Shown here one piece after another: positions 24,105-40,340 of a DNA stretch of 64,000 nucleotides. Source of the DNA: Daphnia carinata (taxonomy: Eukaryota; Arthropoda; Branchiopoda; Diplostraca; Daphniidae); assembly GCF_022539665.2 (NCBI RefSeq), contig NC_081331.1, positions 12,742,638-12,806,637 of the forward strand. The letters are read 5' to 3'. The notes under the pieces are model-generated. The model saw only the letters and a list, made by a program, of their open reading frames with translations, made no database searches and was not told where the DNA came from. The position numbers were made by a program, and so were the translations under genes. Each line of letters opens with the position of its first letter. Position 1 is the first letter of the stretch.

Positions 24105-25208
24105 TTAATATTGCGCCGGAAGTAGCCCATTTACCCAATCGACGATGGTCTTATCGTGCCAAACGTAAGCTCCTTTCGGATTTGTGGCGTCGTTGGGTGG
24201 CAACATGGCCAACCACGACGGAGCAGCAGCACCTAGTCAATCAATAATTAACGTTAATCAAGTGGTATGAAGCAATGAATTCTACATGTAGCTACCTTGT
24301 TCAATTGTTAACACCCCTTTAAAGGACGCCATTTTCGTATTGACGTAGCCAGGATGGACGTGATTAACGATTATGTCTTCACGTGGATCAACATTGAAAT
24401 CACGTTGTTGGATTCGTGTCATCGCACTTACAGCGATTTTAGACGCAATGTAAGAGACCCAGTTTTTCTGTGGCCAGCCATAATCCGAATGATCTCCTCG
24501 CTTCACAGCACTATAAAAATGTCAAAACAAGTTTAAATTTTGAAATTTAGGAATCAACGGTCTTTAAAAGTTACTCCAGAAAATCGTTCATGAGTTTCAA
24601 CAGCTCGTCGTACGAGAGATCCGGAGAAGAAAATTTGGCTCTTAATGTGGTGGCTGCCTCACTCTGACCCTCGATCTGGGAAATGTGACCCATGCTGCTA
24701 GATAAATTGACTACTCTTGCGTGAGGCCTCAGAAGGGGGAAAAGGATATTGCACACACGAAGCGTATTGAAAAAATTAGTTTGCACTACGGAGCGCGTGT
24801 TTTCTGTAAACAATTCTCGTGAATCTTCATTTTTCGCCAAAATTAACATCGCAGCATTGTTAACCAAGATATCTAGACCGCTATAGGTTGCTTTCAGGTA
24901 GTCTCTCAGCCGCAGAACACTGGATTCGTCATCGATATCAAGTTGGTGGTATTTGGGATGCAAGCCAAGCTTCCCAAGTTCTTCGACTGCGGCCCTACCC
25001 AAATTCTCATTTCGAGAAGTTAGATAAACTGAGCCGCTAAACGTTTTACATAGTTCTTTAACAGTTGCATAGCCAATGCCTTGGTTTGCTCCAGTAACCT
25101 TTTTGAATCCAGGTAATGAAGTTAATGTTAAATGAGTTGCATGGAACATACATATAAGTTGGGGAAGATGAATTCAAAACGTACCACTGCAACACGGGAT
25201 CCGACCAT
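24105..25208 (-). CDS. CBR1: Carbonyl reductase 1-like SDR
   Basis: NADPH-dependent cytosolic reductase of ketones, quinones and xenobiotic carbonyls. Four exons: 25185-25208 (MVGSRVAV), 24575-25098, 24296-24510 and 24105-24232. The phases agree and give 296 residues, close to CBR1 proteins (about 277). Motifs: VTGANQGIGYATVKEL (cofactor loop), DILVNNAA, NLSSSMG (catalytic Ser) and WVSYIASK (catalytic YxxxK). HPGYVNTKM is typical of the family, and LPPNDATNPKGAYVW is the CBR C-terminal region. It ends GLLPAQY. Its 3' end lies 0.7 kb from the Gly-rich array and was copied into it (20356-20389). Confidence 0.93.
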
Positions 25209-25525: not shown

Positions 25526-27809
25526 TTACAAATTGTTGCGCACTTTCCATGCACTTTCGTCCTTTGACTGCAACTGCTGAATAACACGGCGACCCCAACG
25601 GAGCCATAGAAATCCGAAAACAATGCATATAAGCGATTCAACGTAAAAACCATCCAAGTCGACGACGCATTGACCTCCAGCTTCAGTACATAACTATGCC
25701 CAAATGAAACAAGTTTTACGCTTATGTTTATGGCTGACGTTAAACATCGAGAAAATGATAACTTACCAGTGTTTCGGCGGAATTGCGGCACTTGTTAGTT
25801 TCACCGACGATAGAATTTCCTGTGTGGCAGCTTTTCCAAGTCAAAGCATCAACGGACCAAAGAGCTAACGTAGAGGGCCAGTTGCCCCCAAGATTGCACA
25901 CTGCAAAATAATATTTGAAAAACAAAGAAGACAATAAAGTACTCAAAAGGTAACAATATATATTTTTGTTAATCACGGCACCTGTGTTTAGTAGCGTCAT
26001 ATAGGTTCCGCCAACCTGAGGATCACTAACCTATAAACAAAGAACGATCATAAAAGGATAAGTTGTTGAGGAAATAAATGTTGAACACGCAACGTCTTAC
26101 TTTGGCAAAGAATGCCATCACGGCAACAAACATACTGTACACTGTGACCTAGGAAAACTGATAATTACATGGTGGCAATTAATGAATGAATGCGTATGGT
26201 GGTACCTGATGTATAGCGTAAATGATAACAACGATTAAATAGTAATAAAAAGGAAACTGGCCGTCGCTGCTTTGAAACCAGGGAGTTATCCATACCAGAC
26301 CAGCATAAACAAATCCGAACATTAACCTGCAGGTTGGTGAGGTGAATGTATTAAAGAATTAACGGTGGTTCTTTTTGTTTAAGAACGATCTTGTTTACCT
26401 ATAAGGAATGGCTTTTATAAAAACTTGCATGGGCCGAGGCCCGGCAGTGTATCGGCTTATGAAAAGTGGCAGGACAATTTGAAGTGGGACTAAAGGGACC
26501 GCTAACAAGGCTAATTGCGCTTTGGGAACTCCCTAAAAGATTTAATAACACCGAGATCAATCGAAAGTCACAATAATCAAGCAGGGAGGGAAAATTCTCA
26601 TTGTTACCATTTCAACTAATTTAAGACCGGAAACTGCATCGGACGCTGAAAATCCTATCTAAATGATAAGACGGAGAAAATAATACCAGCAAATGAAATT
26701 CTGAAATGCTTAAAGTTACCTTGCAGGTTAAGAGAACTACTACAGTCCACCTGATGACAGGAAGTTTAAATATTTTGAGCAATAGCTTGTAAGTCTCCAT
26801 AATGCTTAAATCCTGCTCATCGCCTTCATGGCCGTCTCTTTCGTTATTTTCTTGTGCTTGTGTTTTCTCTCTTTTGAAAAACCACACAAGCGTCGTGGTG
26901 ATAAAGAAAATGATTCCCCAAAAATAAAGGAACCCTAGAATCCATATATGGAATCGAATTAGAAACTTGACCACACGCAACGCGTGAATTCTAGTACTTT
27001 ACCTGATAATGTTAGAAGACCATTTGGTTCAGGATGATTCCTTAGATATTTGTTGCAGAAATCTGCAGATTCAAAAGCTACAAAAACAACATAGCCTAAA
27101 AAATAACCAGCAGTTTGACCAACACTGTTGCAAGTAGAAGCATAACCCACATTTTTCCTGTGTATAACAGAGAATGTATGTGTTAGTGTTTTATAAAATA
27201 ATTTGCAAATGGACAATTAAAAGAAAACCTGTGCAACATTGTTAATGCCCATCCATCAACAGCAATGTCTTGAGTTGCAGCTAAAAAGTTTAGAATAAAG
27301 AATGCTGCAGTTAACAGTTGGATATTAGGGGACCCTTCTGAATCCAGATATTGGTCCACCCTAGTTGACAAAAACAGCATAGCCACTCCAATCAGGTACT
27401 GTACAGGAACAAGCTGTGCAACAACAACAGATATTAATGCCTATTGCGAAGAAGCAATAAATGATTTTAGTACCCAAGTTTTTCTTCTCCCCATCTTAGA
27501 TGAATACAAGGAGTCCACTATTGGAGCCCATAGGAGTTTCAGGCTAAATGGCCAAAACACAAGACTGAATTCTGCTTGTTCTTTGTAGCTAACATGCCGG
27601 TTCTGTAGCATGAGGGGAATGCTGGCAGTCAATCCTAAAGGAATTCCTTGCAGCAAATACAAAAAGAAGAGCAGGGCAATATTTTTGCCTTCACCTTTCC
27701 AACTCCAAATAAGCGGTGCGTCCTTCATTTCTTTGATTTGGTAACTACTTCCTTTTTCACTCAATGAAGAACGTCCATTTTCTGCTTGTAATTCTCCTCG
27801 CTTCCTCAT
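25526..27809 (-). CDS. SLC33A1: Acetyl-coenzyme A transporter 1 (SLC33A1/AT-1)
   Basis: ER membrane carrier that brings acetyl-CoA into the lumen for lysine acetylation of nascent proteins. Eleven exons, all in phase: 27474-27809, 27229-27413, 27003-27157, 26720-26934, 26608-26658, 26399-26532, 26206-26326, 26101-26148, 25982-26030, 25767-25900, 25526-25693. Together 531 residues (human about 549). Signatures: LLFFLYLLQGIPLGL, FSLVFWPFSLKLLWAP, ATQDIAVDGWALTML, NVGYASTCNSVGQTAGY, SDPQVGGTYMTLLNT and NLGGNWPSTLALW. It ends DGFYVESLICIVFGF and a short hydrophilic tail. The 12-TM MFS-like architecture is preserved. Start MRKRGEL at 27809 fits the family's hydrophilic N-terminus. Confidence 0.96.
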
Positions 27810-28498
27810 TGTACAATCTGAAATTTGTTGTAAATTTAATGATTTCTTTCTTTTAAAATGTCTACTTTTAACACCTGTGGTTGTTGGATTGGTTAAATGA
27901 ACAGGTAGTTGTACATTGAGATGATTTGCCTGGTCCTGTGTGATGACGTTGCCTGCTGCCGATAGTTCTCAGTCCAAAAACAAAAACCTTTTTCGTCTGC
28001 TAGTATCTGACAGATAAAAGGGTTGACACTTGACAGCATGCGATTTTCTCATTTTGTTATTAAACTAAAATTTTGCTTTTGACAATACTAGTTTTCCGAC
28101 ACAATAAAAACGATATCATAGAATATGAACACTAAATGGGCTAACGTGCTGCGTAGATGAAAAATCAAGCGCAGCAAAGTAAATGATACTGAACTGGGGC
28201 TGCTGGGGTTCTATTCAATTTTATTCAGTTTTTGATGAGGATTTTGCATCTAACATACAGCACATAACAGCACTTGATGGTGAGAGGAAGAAAACCGGCG
28301 ACGGGTACTTCATTTAACAGGTCGATGAATGAATTTTCAACACGGTTGAATTTGAACTTTTGCTGTGTCAAACGGTGGAGTTCTGTCTGTTACTGCCACC
28401 ACGCCACCAGAGCAATAAAGGTAGGGGAGGAAGAGAACAGGTAAGATTCATCACTGGCACAGCGGACGTAGCTAGGGTCAGCTATGCAGCATGCGGGA
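27810..28498. other. Intergenic stretch between SLC33A1 and E2F4/5
   Basis: 5' flank of SLC33A1 and 3' flank of E2F, both minus. No TATA box, gene or RNA recognised. Confidence 0.55.
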
Positions 28499-30876: not shown

Positions 30877-33800
30877 ATGTCCATAGATTTTGATTTAATT
30901 CTGCCCGATGTGGGTGAGTACGGAAACTACCAAAAACTGATGGTGTGGTTTGTTTTTCTACCCGGCATGATACCCTGTGGGTTCCATGCGTACAATCAGC
31001 TGTTTATGGCAACTCAACCCAAATTTCGATGTCTCGTACCCGATCTCGATTTCACGGCACGCAATCTCACGGATGATTTTATTCGCAACATAAGGTATTT
31101 CTAAAATATTCACTTTCGTTTTTGCATGTAAAGAAAATTGACCGCATTGTAAGATTTGAAACAAATCAATGTTAGTATTCCGTTCGTGATGAACAAAGAC
31201 AGGAGATGGAACTTTAGCTCATGTTCGATGTACTCGCGGAATTACTCCGTCGCGGAAGACCTTACTGTGCTACTTCAAGCTAGCGGAAATTTGTCATCAT
31301 CGGATATTCCAACAGTGCCATGCCAAGTGGGTTGGAAGTTCCAGAACAATGATCAAGAGACAACCACGGTAGTGAGTGAAGTAAGTTTTTAAGTTACGCT
31401 TGGCAAACATTGTTTTGTTTCGTTTCCCTCTCCCCATGTTCGTTTCGTTTCGGTTTGCTTGCTTTTTAACCCATGGAAAACCACCTAAGCCAGACAGGAA
31501 ACTGGCCTTCCAATAACTGTCAATCACTGCCGCTTTGAATATGTCCGGTCTTGTTTCAAAAAGGGTAATTATATTCAAATGAATCCGAACGGTTTGTCTC
31601 TCCCCAACACTGCGTTTCCTCTTTTCATTTAGTCAAATGACAACTGATTTCCGTTTATCAATTAATTTTTCTTCAAAATCAATTGACTCTCAATAGTGGG
31701 AACTGGTGTGCGATAAAGATTTCTATCCGACGATGGCTCTAGTTCTTTTTGGCATTAGCGGGCTTATTGGTAACTGGATTTTCGGGTACATACAAGACAG
31801 GTAAGTGTTTAAAATTAAGCTTATTTTGCTATAAAATTGTCCATAATTTCAATCTTTCATTGATGTATCAGCATGGGGAGACGGCCAGCATTTTTTATTT
31901 ACCTGTTGATTGAAAGCATATTCGCTATCGCAACAGCATTTGCTCCCAATTTCGGCATTTGGTTAGCATGTAGGATTGGCGGTAATAACTTAACTATTCT
32001 AAATCTCAATCATCTACACACTATACACTTCTTTTTTTATATATTGTTTTTATAGTTGGGTTTACCGTACCGGCTATCATGGGAACTCCTTTTGTCATGG
32101 GTACTATATAGAACCCTCTTTTTCGGAATTTTTTAAATTTTTATTAGGGTTTCTTTCATTCTTCCCTAATTGTATTGTGTGATTGTGTTTTGGTTTCGAT
32201 AGCCATTGAACTGGTAGGCCCATCCTGGCGAACTCACGTCGCCTTGTTGGCCAACGTGGTTTATTCATGCACACTGTGTCTGTTGGGTGTGGTGGTGTGG
32301 CTGGTTCGTGATTGGCGACAAATGTCATTGGCCACCTCTCTTCCATTTTTAGCCTTCTTCGTCTATTGGTGGTACTTTCTAAAGACATGAAAATCACGTT
32401 ATCTACGAACCCGTGAAGTCTTTTCAACAAACGTTTCAAAATGATATAGGGTCTTACCGGAATCTCCCAGATGGCTGTTGTCACAGAATCGATTAGCAGA
32501 AGCCGAAGTCGAAATCCGGAAGATGGCCCGCATCAACAAACGATCCCTGCCAGCTGGATATTTCAATCAGCTCAAAGTATTTGAACACCTTTCCCAATAC
32601 ATAACAGTTATCATTGCAAAGCTCTTACATTTAAAAAAATTATTAATAATTTATTTAAGAGCAACGCTGAAGCGGCAGGCGAAAACGTGGATTCCAATCG
32701 TTCCCAACCGACTTATGGAGCGCTTGATTTAGTGAAGACACCCAATATGGCCCGAAAAACCGCAATCGTTACATTCATCTGGTATTTTCCTTTCGTCGAT
32801 TGTTCTACTGTTAATTCGATTGGCGCAGATAATGAATCTTTGCTTAGGTTCACAGTTACTTCAGTATACGTTGGCCTTTCCTATTATGCGCCGGCATTAG
32901 GCGGCAATGAATATCTGAATTTCCTACTGGCAGGCGTGGCGGAACTGCCAACCTATTTCTTTCTTTGGCCAACAATGGATCGATGGGGTCGACGATGGAC
33001 GCTCTGCTTCTCCATGATTTTGGGCGGGGTCGCTTGTCTAGCGACCCTATCCTTCCAAGATGGTAAGCCAGCAAATTCTAATCCGTCGATATAATATTAA
33101 CTATACCTATTATCTAATCTTGTTGTTTATGTCATGTAGATTACATCGTTATGCTTGTGCTCTACTGCGTCGGCAAATTCGGAATATCCTCCGCCTTTGT
33201 GGTAATGAAATTTTGCATGTCAAATGGAAGAGCGATAGTGCAGGAAATCATTCCATTTTTATACCCAATTTTACATCTCGTTAGGTCCTTCCCTTAATGG
33301 CGTCTGAATTATATCCAACTGTTGTACGCGGTATCGGTATCAGCATTAGTGGCGTCGCAGGAATGCTTGGCCCAATCTTCATTCCGCTCATCAATTATCT
33401 GGTCAGTTTTTTTAATGGCACCGTGTTCCAGAAAAATGAATAATAAACTCTTTTCCTCTTTTTTCGCCAAAGGGAACTGAAAGCTTGATGGTTTTGCCTC
33501 TGATGATCATGGGCGGTCTGATGGTGGCCGGTGGCCTGTGTGCGTTGACCTTACCTGAAACTCTGCACCAGCACTTGCCACAGACCCTAGAAGAGGGTGA
33601 ACTATTCGGTTCGTAAAGCACTATCATTTGTTCTTGTCATTGTTCTGATTTTAAAGTTAAATTATTCCCTTCTTCTAACACTAACCGAAAAAGGTAAAGA
33701 CTTTGGATACAAACAATGGCTTACATGTTGTCCACCACGTCCGAATCGACGAGAGCATGGAAAAGACGTTGCTCAAAGGTAAATTCTGATTGATTCGAAC

Positions 33801-34783: not shown

Positions 34784-35586
34784 TTAACAAGCGGTCACTG
34801 TTCTTGTGAGCTTATCTTGAACCGACGCCATGGAAGCTTGCTCATCATCGCTGGCCTGATTTTCAAAATTTATGCAACAAAATGAGCCAAATGAAAAATC
34901 CCGCTAGCTGATTCATTTACAAAGTACTCACCTGAACAAAAGCGGATATTCCTGGAACAGCTTTCTTCATACCTTCTACGGAGGCGGCGTGAATAAACTT
35001 GGATCGCACTTTGACTTCATCAGGGCACCAAGACATCAAAACAAGTTTGTCTCTCTTCTTATCCTTTTCACCCAAAAAAATTAAAAAGCCACATAAGTTT
35101 TTTGTGTCACAATTTTACAAAGTAATTTAAATATTTACAGGAGATGATTTGCACTGAAATTCGGCATCAAGAACGCCATAACGGCATTCTTTTCCTGTTG
35201 GTTTGACAATCTTCAAATGTTTCAAATATTCATCGTAACTCGCAGTGCGGCTTCCTATTCAGAACAGAAAACTCAACTAAGGCAAAACCTTATTTTATAT
35301 CACAACTTAAAGCCATCATACCCGTCGATTCAACATCAATGAGCGTCTCGTTTTGAACGAAGAATACACCGTAGCGAAAATCCTTGCCGGCCTTGATTTT
35401 GTCGATCACCGCCTTGGCGGCGTCAGTGACTCTGACTCCCGATTCCTGGATGCAATAATTGAAATACACATCACCAACAGGAAAAAGTTATAAGGGGATA
35501 AGACTTACCAAAACTGCCGCGGACTGGACATCGTACACAGACACTAGCAGACAAATGGACAAACAAATCAACGTAAGTCTTGTCAT
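34784..35586 (-). CDS. ADF/cofilin with an N-terminal signal peptide
   Basis: Five exons: 35509-35586, 35322-35445, 35139-35254, 34932-35063, 34784-34855; phases agree, 173 residues. Residues 27-173 form a full ADF/cofilin of ordinary size (about 148): ESGVRVTDAAKAVIDKIKAG, RYGVFFVQNE, TASYDEYLKHLKI, GKECRYGVLDAEF, DKLVLMSWCPDEVKVRSKF and ASVEGMKKAVPGISAFVQAS. Known cofilins act on actin in cytosol and nucleus and begin with Met from a one-codon exon. Here the first exon instead encodes MTRLTLICLSICLLVSV and YDVQSAAVL, a typical secretory signal with likely cleavage after QSA. A strong TATA box precedes it. The regulatory Ser near the N-terminus is kept (ESG). Cofilin identity is firm; secretion is inferred. 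Confidence 0.88.
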
Positions 35587-35672
35587 CCTTGGAAGAGTGC
35601 TGAGTCCACAGCGTTGCTTTATCGTCTGGTACAGTTCGAACCCACAGCGAAGGTGCATTCGAACGTTGTGGG

Positions 35673-35680
35673 TTTTTATA
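35673..35680 (-). promoter_or_regulatory. TATA box of the cofilin-like gene
   Basis: TATAAAAA on the minus strand, 86 bp upstream of the ATG at 35586. It supports transcription starting just before the signal-peptide exon. Confidence 0.7.
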
Positions 35681-35689
35681 CTTACAGGC

Positions 35690-36574
35690 CAGGTAGAGGA
35701 AGATGGCGGCAGGGCACTCGTGATAACGTAGTCGCCTTGTAAGGGGAAAAGAAAGAAAGCAAAAAATAAATTAGAAAAGCTGCACAGAAAAACCAATGCC
35801 CGGAGCAAACAACTTTCCTTCTTTCGAGAGTACAAGAGCTTTTAAAACAATGTACGATAGAAAAGAATGATAAATGTGGACATCTCACCCTGCGTGTATG
35901 AGTCGTGACTGGGTGGGACGTGCCAAAAATTGATAATGATATAAGGTACTTCTTGTTGCAATCCTACCAGCATACATGTAAAGCTTTTTTTTGTGAGCGA
36001 CGTATGAACATACAGATTGGTTGTCAAGAGACCCAATCACCCCTGCTTGCCCTTGAGAAACAGCATGGAACACGTTCCAGGAAATCCTATTTTAACCTGC
36101 AGGGACAACAACCAATGCGCCAGTGGGGTTCTACGAAAAAAAAGTGCGTAAGCAAAAATGGAAAATCCCCACTCCTAAAATATACAAATGCTCCATTGGC
36201 CTTCAGGTAACTAATTTAGACATTAAACAACAAAAGATAAACAGTATGCATGTATCTATTATGTTTTGTTTTGAACGTTGTTTCGTGCTCTGTTTTCAAC
36301 GATATTTAGAAACCTCGTTTTGTTATGCTAAGCACAAGGAATGCAGTCCCCGAGCAGGCATTGAAAAATAGGACGGAATATGTGCTAGACTTTTACCTTG
36401 TTTCTGGTAAGTAACAGACTTTCGTGATCTTGAACTTATTTTTAGCCATCGCTTAAACTGTTTGTTCGTCGTTTCTTTTCTAGCGACCATCCGCAGTCGT
36501 TTTGAATCACTAGTCGTCCAACTTTTCCCCTGGCAAGTAAGAATGAAAATATAGGATTTCACTTGCAGAATAAA
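35690..36574. other. Intergenic region between divergent cofilin-like and dipeptidase genes
   Basis: No coding exon recognised. A possible 5' non-coding exon of the dipeptidase may end near 36568 (TTGCAG just before the ATG). Confidence 0.5.
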
Positions 36575-38490
36575 ATGGCACAATTAAGCGTTATCCTGTG
36601 GATGATTGTGTTGGCGTTTATCTCTGCTGAAGTGTCTGCCTTCGCGAAGCTGATTGATAGACCTCTTGGTGAAAAGGTGGGAATTACGTTGAACAAAATA
36701 TCTGAATCGTTGCTCGACAGCGAAGCAAAAACTAACACAAACGAGGTTTCGGAAACGAGAGCCATTTCAGTGAACGATGAACTGGCCATAGTTTTACAAC
36801 TCCTTGAACGTGTTCCTCTTATTGATGGGTACGCTGTACTTTTCGATTCATTCGGCAATTCGTGTTAATTTACCACTTTCCTTTTCATTTTTCACAGACA
36901 CAATGATTTACCGCACGTTATTCGATTACTAACTGAAAGTCAGTTGGCTAGCTTTAATTTGACAGATCTTTCGGATAAAAATCCGTGGAGTTCTGACCCC
37001 ATGTCACATACGGACATTGTCCGTCTGCGTAAAGGGAAGGTTGGCGCTCAGGTATTGAACGATGTCTCGCCATTTTTATATCGCAATAATTAATATTTTC
37101 GGCATAGTTCTGGGTGGCCTATACTAACTGCAATGCTCAGTACAATGACTCCCCTCAAAAGGCGTTCGAACAAATTGATCTCATCTATCGTTTAATCGAC
37201 CTTTATTCAGATACGTTCCAACTCGCCACCACGGCGCAAGGTATGATTTAATCGACTGGAAATTAAGCACGTAATGCACTTTTTTTTTCATTCAACGCAG
37301 AGATTGAGGACGTATTTGGTACTGGCAAAATCGCCAGCCTAATTGGTGTTGAAGGTGGTCATGCTATTGGCAATTCGCTCAGTCTTTTGCGCATCTTTTA
37401 TCGACTCGGAGTGCGATATATGACCCTCACTCATTCTTGCCCTACGCCATGGTACTGGCGAAAGCCATTGGTTAAGAAATTCAACATAACAGTGAAACAT
37501 TTAAAATTCAGTTTCTTTGATTATATAGGGCCGATAATTCCCAGCTAGACAATCCAGGTCAGCAACCTATTCACGACGGACTTAGTGGCTTTGGAGAAGT
37601 GAGTCCATATTTTAGATTACCCATCGACTACGTTTGAATCGTTGTTTATCTTTTTACGTTTTTCAGGCGATCGTGCAAGAAATGAATCGTTTGGGAATGA
37701 TGGTGGACATTTCGCATGTGTCAGTTGCAACGATGGAAGATGTGTTGAACGTGTCACAAGCGCCCGTGATTTTTAGCCATTCGGGTGCCTTTTCTGTTTG
37801 CAATCATACTCGAAACGTTCCCGACCATGTCCTTCGTCGTCTAGTTGGTTTCAATGCTAATGCCTTTTGGTCTGATTAAAATCAAATAAAATTCTACATT
37901 TTTATCAGGCGAAAAACGGTGGCATAATCATGGTGGTTTTTTACAATGAATTCCTCTCGTGTGAGCAGTCGGCCAATATCAACGATGTCGTTCGCCACAT
38001 AGAACACATTCGTAACCTCATCGGCGTGGATCATATTGGACTAGGAGGCGATTTTAACGGAGTTGACAGGTTTGATATTTACGGTTATCTAGAACATTTT
38101 GTTTTATGATTACACCAAAAGAAGTATTTTCATATAATGCCGCTAACGTATTTAAAGGGTTCCCACTGACCTGGAGGATGTATCAAAATATCCCAACATC
38201 TTCGTCGAATTATTACGCCTTGGGTGGAGTGAAACGGATGTAGAAAAACTGGCGGGTACGAACATGCTACGTGTTATGCGTCGTGTTGAACAGGTTTGGT
38301 ATTTTTTCCTATTTCCTGTTTCTTGTGGCAAATGTATATTATTTTATTTTTATTTTATTTACGTTTTTTTTTGCCGTTTTACTCTGTCAAGGTTAAGCAA
38401 GAACTATCTTTCATGGAGCCCATTGAAGAATGGATACCGACAGAAGACCTCCGACCTGAGCATAAATTATGTCTGACGAATTACATTTAG
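36575..38490 (+). CDS. Membrane (renal) dipeptidase-like zinc peptidase
   Basis: Zinc metallodipeptidase (family M19) that hydrolyses dipeptides including products of glutathione and leukotriene breakdown. Nine exons: 36575-36828, 36898-37051, 37108-37240, 37301-37451, 37529-37598, 37667-37843, 37909-38069, 38158-38293, 38392-38490. Together 444 residues. N-terminal signal peptide [20 protein letters not shown]. Catalytic marks: [11 protein letters not shown] (His and Asp zinc ligands), [22 protein letters not shown] (bridging Glu), [26 protein letters not shown] and NHTRNVPD (His ligands), IGLGGDFNG. It ends HKLCLTNYI, with no hydrophobic GPI-attachment tail, so it may be secreted rather than anchored. 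An 80-residue spacer precedes the catalytic domain. Confidence 0.94.
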
Positions 38491-38807
38491 GCGAGGAAGC
38501 TTATCAGTTGAAAAATAAGTTTACTATTTATACTAGAGGTTTTGCCCTATGATTTATAACCGCTTTTGAGGATATAATGTTCCAAAAATGTATTATTGAG
38601 CGAGGTTCGAATTCCTGCATTCAATGTCAAGCTTACTATTTTAAAAAGAAACAATTTCCTCTTCTGAATTCTCGTTTAAATACAACTTCCGTACGAATGT
38701 ATGTTTCAACGAAAATTCGTACGTCAGGTGGCGTTGATATCGCTTCTGTTGACATGCGTTCGTCGTGTGTACTAGGTTGTTAGTGTTCGCCTGCTCTTCT
38801 CTTGAAA
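38491..38807. other. Short intergenic spacer before SHQ1
   Basis: Contains a B-box-like GGTTCGAATTCC at 38604 but no matching tRNA fold. No gene. Confidence 0.5.
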
Positions 38808-40340
38808 ATGATTACGCCACGTTTCAAACTCAGCCAGGATGATACCTACCTTTTTGTCACGATTCATGCTCCGTTCTCTCGAGTATCAGACGCAGAAATT
38901 TATATGGACGGTACTGATTTTCGCTTTCATTCAAACCCTTATTATGTCCGCCTCAACTTGCCTGGAGAAATAATCGAAAACGATGAAGCGAAAGCACACT
39001 TTGATGCTGACACTAATGAGTTCAAAATTACGTGCCCCAAAGTAACGAAGGGAAACTACTTCCAAGGATTAGATATGCTCTCTAGTCTTCTCAAACCCAA
39101 GGGAAAGAGAGGAGTTGAAAGCAAAGATATAGAAGTCCTTGGTGAAACCTGCACAGAAGATGACTCGGAATCAGATTTTGATTGGTTTGTGGAACAAAAA
39201 ATTGAAACAGAAACAGATCTAACTTCAAGTAGTTCAAGATATGGCTTTGGTGTCAAACACTCTGGGTTGTTTGCCACACTTGCTGAGGAACTACATGAAG
39301 TTGTAGATGTGAAAAATCCTGACAACCAATCAGCAGCAGAAAGGAGAACAGAAAGATTAGAACAAGAAAAAATAGAATTTAACCCAGAACATTACTTGGC
39401 TGATTTCTTCCAGACAGATATGATTGATCCACTGATTCATTACCAATTGCCAAGTAGAGTTAGTGAAGAATGGACAGAAACAGAGACCAATCTCTTAAAA
39501 AATTTTCCCAATAAAGACTTCTTATTGGATCATGACCAGTTGCAATCAACATATCTTGGTTTGGTTGATATTTTACTAGCATACTCTTATGATACAAGAA
39601 CTACTATGTCTGATCCAACCGTCGAATCAGCTTGGGCCATCGCCAAGATAAGTGGAACTCTATCTTGGCTAGAGGTATAATCCGTTTTCTGCATTATTCT
39701 TCGAAAGTGATCCTTATGTGATCTTTACTAATTTTTTTTTTTTTTTTAGAATTTCACGTCGATTCGTCAAGTTGTCGAATGTTTCTTGCGTAGAAGCCTT
39801 TGCTTTCCACTATTTCGCAATTTCAAATTGTCATTGAAAGCCATCGAAGATGCTCGCTGTATTCTTAAAGAAGGGCGGATGTCTGTTTTGAGATGCTTTC
39901 TACAAATCTATCAGTTATTCAATAAAAGTGATCCCCGGTACCTTCTTAACCAACTATACATTCACGACTACTGCATCTGGATTCAGAAATCGAATGATGA
40001 AACACTGGTTTCCTTAAGTGAAAGTCTGAAATCGGTATTTATTCCACTTCTTAATGTAACATTCAAGCTAGCTAACAGGATTTTTTGTTAGATGGAATTA
40101 ACCAAAGAAGATGTTGGTTTAAATCTCGTAGACTTGGAACGGGCTGCAATCAACCTTATGTGCAATAGTGATGACTCATCAGAAGAATCTGATCTTGAAG
40201 AACAAATGGCACAGTTATCACTGAAAAAGAAACCCGTGTCAAGCGCTCTCCCGACTGATTTACAAGTGGCAGCAGAAGCTGCTCGAGTGATGTCGGAATC
40301 GGATTCAGATGATGTTTCTTCATCTGAAGAAAGTGACTAA
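38808..40340 (+). CDS. SHQ1: SHQ1, H/ACA snoRNP assembly factor
   Basis: Chaperone that holds dyskerin before H/ACA RNP assembly (rRNA pseudouridylation, telomerase). Three exons: 38808-39674, 39750-40034, 40092-40340; 466 residues. The N-terminal CS domain starts MITPRFKLSQDDTYLFVTIH and contains YYVRLNLPGEI and FKITCPKVTKGNYFQGLDML. The SHQ1-specific helical domain follows: FGVKHSGLFATL, VVDVKNPD, RTERLEQEKIEFNPEHYLAD, LVDILLAYSYDTRTT, ESAWAIAKISGTLSWLE and FLRRSLCFPLFRNFKLS. The C-terminus is acidic and Ser-rich (SDSDDVSSSEESD), as in other SHQ1 proteins. Slightly shorter than human (577), mainly in the tail. Confidence 0.95.

Follow-up and report, generated by a model that had tools for sequence, protein, structure and literature searches.

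ADF/cofilins are known as cytosolic and nuclear proteins. Here we describe a gene for an ADF/cofilin with a signal-type leader, which lies on the minus strand of a 64,000-nucleotide stretch of the Daphnia carinata genome (NC_081331.1, positions 12,742,638 to 12,806,637; hereafter the window, with coordinates counted from its first letter). One described system to which it can be compared is plasma gelsolin, which vertebrates use to clear actin from plasma and which has an N-terminal peptide that sets it apart from cytoplasmic gelsolin, according to the available excerpt of PMC8704698. The likeness that we propose is that of an intracellular actin regulator which has been given an extra N-terminal peptide and is exported. 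Going by the same excerpt, the differences are that gelsolin belongs to another family, that its three isoforms come from one gene whereas the leadered cofilin is a separate duplicate gene, and that plasma gelsolin is regulated by calcium, with nothing of that kind seen in the leadered cofilin (PMC8704698). A second likeness is with protein subcellular relocalization, in which one copy of a duplicated gene is retained after its product has acquired a different location (PMC3879971, PMC2397506, both in excerpt).

Actin outside cells has been considered in insects as well, as the accessible parts of two papers report that flies respond when actin is injected into them (PMC5138034) and that insect actin is secreted on immune challenge (PMC4450071). 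A secreted cofilin would, by analogy, suit the clearance of such actin. An ADF-H domain protein of 144 amino acids is listed in the excretory-secretory proteome of a nematode, in a list that does not say whether the protein has a leader (PMC10531923). In the searches made of open-licence literature, no paper describing a secreted or leadered cofilin paralogue was found, and the Daphnia papers that mention cofilin concern other matters, judging by their titles.

Based on its sequence, we consider it somewhat probable that the D. carinata gene encodes a secreted, neofunctionalised cofilin that acts on extracellular actin. If this is true, the ADF/cofilin fold can work outside cells and extracellular actin handling becomes testable in an invertebrate model. 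The gene would also show cleanly how a protein can reach a new compartment when the first exon of its gene is replaced.

Structure of the leadered cofilin gene

The coding sequence of 522 nucleotides (173 amino acids and a stop codon) is spliced from five minus-strand exons between window positions 35586 and 34784, all with gt...ag borders. Exon 1 (35509..35586, 78 nucleotides) holds the start codon and a hydrophobic signal-type leader, MTRLTLICLSICLLVSVYDVQSAAVL, and ends in phase 0. Intron 1 (35446..35508, 63 bases, gtaagt...cag) has to be spliced out because it contains an in-frame TAA. The ADF/cofilin domain begins in exon 2 (35322..35445, 124 nucleotides), which encodes ESGVRV...ST and the first base of the next codon, and continues through exon 3 (35139..35254, 116 nucleotides) into exon 4 (34932..35063, 132 nucleotides), which carries the long helix with two paralogue-specific changes, Met to Phe at residue 129 and Tyr to His at residue 131. 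Exon 5 (34784..34855, 72 nucleotides) encodes the C-terminal helix, a C-terminal Cys (residue 173) and the stop codon. A preliminary description of the locus had placed a signal-type leader exon in phase with four cofilin exons, and both its coordinates and its anatomy were right. The spliced frame is open over all 173 residues.

The same description had put a TATA element 86 bp upstream of the ATG, and this position is borne out by TATAAAAA (35673..35680, minus strand), in which TATAAAA begins at 35680. With 86 bases between it and the ATG, this element is a candidate core promoter. A further in-frame ATG upstream (35656..35658, minus strand) is probably outside the transcript, because it follows the TATA start by only 22 bases and the predicted transcript start would lie beyond it.

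Origin by duplication of an ordinary cofilin

A profile search of the genome (108 Mb in 106 contigs) with PF00241 gave eight exon-level matches. One of these places, on contig C7, is the ordinary leaderless cofilin of 149 residues that had been suggested to exist elsewhere in the genome, and the other PF00241 places resemble, by eye, other ADF-H proteins. When the ordinary protein was used as the query at an E-value of 0.001, all seven matches fell in the C7 gene and the window gene.

In the ordinary gene, the first coding exon is ATG alone (ATG/gtgagc, the stroke marking the exon border), followed by three exons of 124, 125 and 129 bases and then the last one; the 124-nucleotide length of exon 2 is equal in the two genes. 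The positions of all four introns correspond between the genes, and their phases are identical. Introns 1, 2 and 4 coincide exactly in the alignment, and intron 3, which falls in a loop whose length differs, is offset by no more than a codon. From this we conclude that the window gene arose by duplication of DNA, not as a retrogene, and received a new first exon, in agreement with the start-exon replacement that had been suggested for it. No second copy of the 78-base leader exon was found in the genome, where it matches itself alone, and a protein search at E-values up to 10 gave no other match to the leader. It may have arisen de novo or have been captured.

The leader in other Daphnia

A protein search with the window protein gave six matches. 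Leadered orthologues, which the preliminary description had proposed to look for in other Daphnia, are predicted in Daphnia magna (P0001, isoform X1 of 276 amino acids, 96% identity to the window protein, leader internal), Daphnia pulicaria (P0002, 173 amino acids, 85% identity) and Daphnia galeata (P0003, 172 amino acids, 83% identity). A fourth protein, P0004 (169 amino acids, 54% identity), is probably the product of a spliced transcript, as it forms one uninterrupted frame on a 943-base contig. The other two, P0005 and P0006, are fragments that resemble unspliced genomic frames. The leader and the junction AAVLESG are present in all four longer proteins (P0001-P0004). The named database records label the leadered proteins plainly as cofilin homologues or ADF-H proteins, which hides the difference.

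In a wider protein search, the best 100 of 7996 scored matches were examined, and five of these 100 reach a hydropathy of at least 2.2 within the first 35 residues: P0002, P0003, P0004, P0081 and P0005, the last of which is a genomic read-through and out of register. The remaining rows among the best 100 are fragments or start at or near the ordinary MASGV or MSSGV, a few residues that are not hydrophobic preceding it in some. A search with P0004 as the query returned only itself among 123 candidates; it is uninformative on the range of P0004 because known relatives were missed too.

P0081 is a genomic contig in which a leader is followed by a short stop-free intron-like stretch that runs into ESGVRATPGAQ, and this reading implies that some Daphnia-like genome has a related leadered cofilin copy of a second type. 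P0077 carries the TPGAQ mark too, the leader itself being visible in P0081 only. A copy of this second type was not found in the D. carinata genome by the ordinary-cofilin search (E-value 0.001) or the leader search (E-values up to 10).

Leader evolution and cleavage

All five leadered proteins compared begin with a positively charged N-terminal region, and the hydrophobic core behind it has a hydropathy of 2.59-3.05. With the leader taken as the first 22 residues, the window protein shares 95% of the leader and 96% of the mature part with D. magna, 64% and 88% with D. pulicaria, 48% and 87% with D. galeata, and 24% and 61% with P0004, while D. pulicaria and D. galeata share 67% and 93% with each other. 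A leader that drifts in this manner while staying hydrophobic evolves as signal peptides do.

Cleavage sites were judged by the simple (-3,-1) small-residue rule. This allows VQS/AAV and SAA/VLE (the stroke marking the cut) in the window protein and in D. magna, and several sites in P0004, SQS/AAV and SAA/VLE among them. The candidate mature N-termini are AAVLESG, VLESG or VYDVQSAAVLESG. In D. pulicaria and D. galeata the sites that remain are LVS/WYP, LVS/LYP and the implausible LES/GVR. The weak cleavage site in these two species, together with the positive residue near the N-terminus, would fit a leader that serves as an uncleaved signal anchor or as a retention device of the endoplasmic reticulum (ER) or Golgi, which would give a membrane-tethered or luminal ADF-H protein. 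This is improbable given the allowed sites in the window protein, D. magna and P0004, and the shortness of the hydrophobic core, a short core being typical of signal peptides. Retention in the ER is marked by a KDEL-type motif, and the C-termini of the leadered proteins, TVTAC or TTSGC, are no such signal.

Position of the start codon

The RefSeq isoform X1 of D. magna has 103 extra N-terminal residues before the leader, which might suggest that the gene model is an artefact, with transcripts starting elsewhere (at the upstream exon of X1 or at an ATG-only exon) and a cytosolic product. We hold this to be very unlikely. To align the extension with the window, a stop and a change of frame have to be crossed, its part from GDYVIT onward being well kept there, and X1 still contains the leader. 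The proteins of D. pulicaria, D. galeata and P0004 all start within two residues of the window ATG, and the letters of the leader drift while its hydrophobicity stays. An ATG-only first exon, the alternative named in the preliminary description, has no candidate in 35446-38500, as this range contains no ATG/GTR site and extends past the start of an opposite-strand gene at 36575, which itself limits the likely distance to an alternative upstream first exon. Based on these comparisons, we take the start codon of the leadered cofilin to be at 35586.

A chance estimate was made from the phase-0 exons of the form ATG...GTRAG with a length of 45-240 nucleotides, of which there are 45 on both strands of the whole window. 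Two of the 45 reach an 11-residue hydropathy of at least 2.2, and the leader exon is the higher one (2.93). This count carries far less weight than the occurrence of the leader in other records.

Family membership and paralogue-specific changes

PF00241 (Cofilin_ADF) is the sole Pfam family in the 173-residue product (79.3 bits; the cut-off is 22.4), with a match spanning positions 2-125 of the 125 in the profile. The protein has the three-dimensional ADF-H fold in a form closest to the actin-binding ADF/cofilins, and among solved structures Drosophila twinstar (2mv2) and Anopheles ADF (9fp8) are its closest relatives by sequence. Of the invariant Lys-Met-x-Tyr of the long helix it retains Lys128, with Phe129 and His131 instead of Met and Tyr. 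The leadered protein is thus a member of the ADF/cofilin family by descent and fold that is altered in the long helix. It differs from ADF/cofilins as represented by twinstar, Anopheles ADF and PF00241 in the signal-type leader, the two helix substitutions and the C-terminal Cys, and in Daphnia also in a sequon within the turn of the first hairpin.

These differences were followed in a comparison of 5 leadered proteins with 45 ordinary cofilins. Phe129 and His131 are fixed in 5/5 leadered proteins, whereas all 45 ordinary cofilins have Met and Tyr at these positions. The C-terminal Cys occurs in all five and in 0/45, and the sequon at residue 58 is shared by all four Daphnia leadered proteins. 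Lys112, Lys128 and Ser28-Gly29 are retained in 5/5 leadered proteins. The altered Met and Tyr belong to the long helix, which faces actin in cofilins. At position 110 the leadered protein has Arg where 38/45 ordinary cofilins have Lys. The predicted filament-side residues Arg110 and Lys112 are kept or conservatively changed, and the long helix is remodelled.

Phylogeny

The leadered proteins form one group (support 100/100). Its stem measures 1.02 changes per column, compared with 0.02 for the end branch of the genome's ordinary cofilin. In the free tree, the nearest neighbours of this clade are four ordinary cofilins (P0007, P0008, P0009 and that of the genome itself), with Artemia outside (98/98). 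Approximately unbiased tests did not reject grouping those four with Artemia (p 0.264), keeping them as one group (p 0.373) or uniting the leadered clade with a divergent Artemia copy (p 0.252). The placement beside the four ordinary cofilins is therefore suggested, not secured. In Artemia franciscana, P0025 is a second cofilin that has no leader and has diverged along a very long branch.

The fast divergence on the stem would be expected of a decaying duplicate that picked up its leader by chance. This is barely credible for a gene with an open frame, 83-96% identity to the Daphnia records, a mature part 58-61% identical to that of P0004 and invariant paralogue-specific residues. The long stem and the fixed Phe129 and His131 speak for the main rival explanation, in which the protein is secreted but is no longer an actin protein, its ADF-H fold now serving to bind something else outside the cell (a cell surface, a microbe, the matrix or the gut content). 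The retention of Lys112, Lys128 and Ser28-Gly29 and a fold closest to that of the actin-binding ADF/cofilins speak against such a ligand, and we rate this explanation as rather unlikely.

A proposed model for extracellular actin handling

For a secreted cofilin acting on actin, the following course can be envisaged. An ordinary cofilin gene would have been duplicated at the DNA level, introns included, and the duplicate would have lost its ATG-only first coding exon and gained a new promoter and a signal-peptide first exon. Its product would enter the ER, where Asn58, which lies in the turn that joins the first two long strands, would probably be glycosylated, and be exported to the haemolymph or another body fluid. 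There, like the plasma gelsolin of vertebrates, it could bind actin that damaged cells have released. With its remodelled long helix it may bind or sequester actin and not sever it as ordinary cofilin does; the altered helix and the few extra N-terminal residues left after cleavage point to a changed, perhaps weaker or non-severing, mode of binding. Whether water fleas have in this way independently invented a plasma-gelsolin-like handling of extracellular actin, tuned by the glycosylation site, the remodelled helix and possibly a C-terminal Cys that pins the tail, is a tentative idea which we think could well be wrong.

Several observations weigh against a secreted, actin-binding cofilin. Secretion and actin binding are deduced from sequence, and in the D. 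magna record, the 276-residue isoform X1, the leader is internal. The (-3,-1) sites of the other leadered proteins are lost to a Pro in D. pulicaria and D. galeata, so cleavage may vary or fail. The loss of the invariant Met and Tyr could mean that actin binding is lost. P0004 lacks the NET sequon and has its own, NVT, at residue 33, and a sequon is present somewhere in 14/45 ordinary cofilins. Neither cofilin nor gelsolin is mentioned in the work on actin outside the cells of flies and mosquitoes (PMC5138034, PMC4450071). For gelsolin itself (PF00626, 23 exon-level matches in the genome), inspection by eye of five stretches near such matches on contigs C4, C7 and C9 tied no leader exon to a gelsolin gene, a result that was given no weight.

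Neighbouring features in the window

The divergent neighbour gene, from 36575 onward on the plus strand, appears dipeptidase-like by eye and also has a first exon that codes for a signal-like leader; its first open reading frame had no Pfam match. A tandem array of about ten short open reading frames occupies 2811-23136 on the minus strand, many of them with hydrophobic leaders, Gly/Tyr/His-rich repeats and basic sites similar to RKRRS or RQRRS. The two of these frames that were tested matched no Pfam family. Pfam further identified a short-chain dehydrogenase (24574-25173, minus strand), an acetyl-CoA transporter (Acatn; 27444-27968, minus strand), an MFS transporter (32585-33091, plus strand) below the cut-off, and SHQ1 (38784-39677, plus strand).
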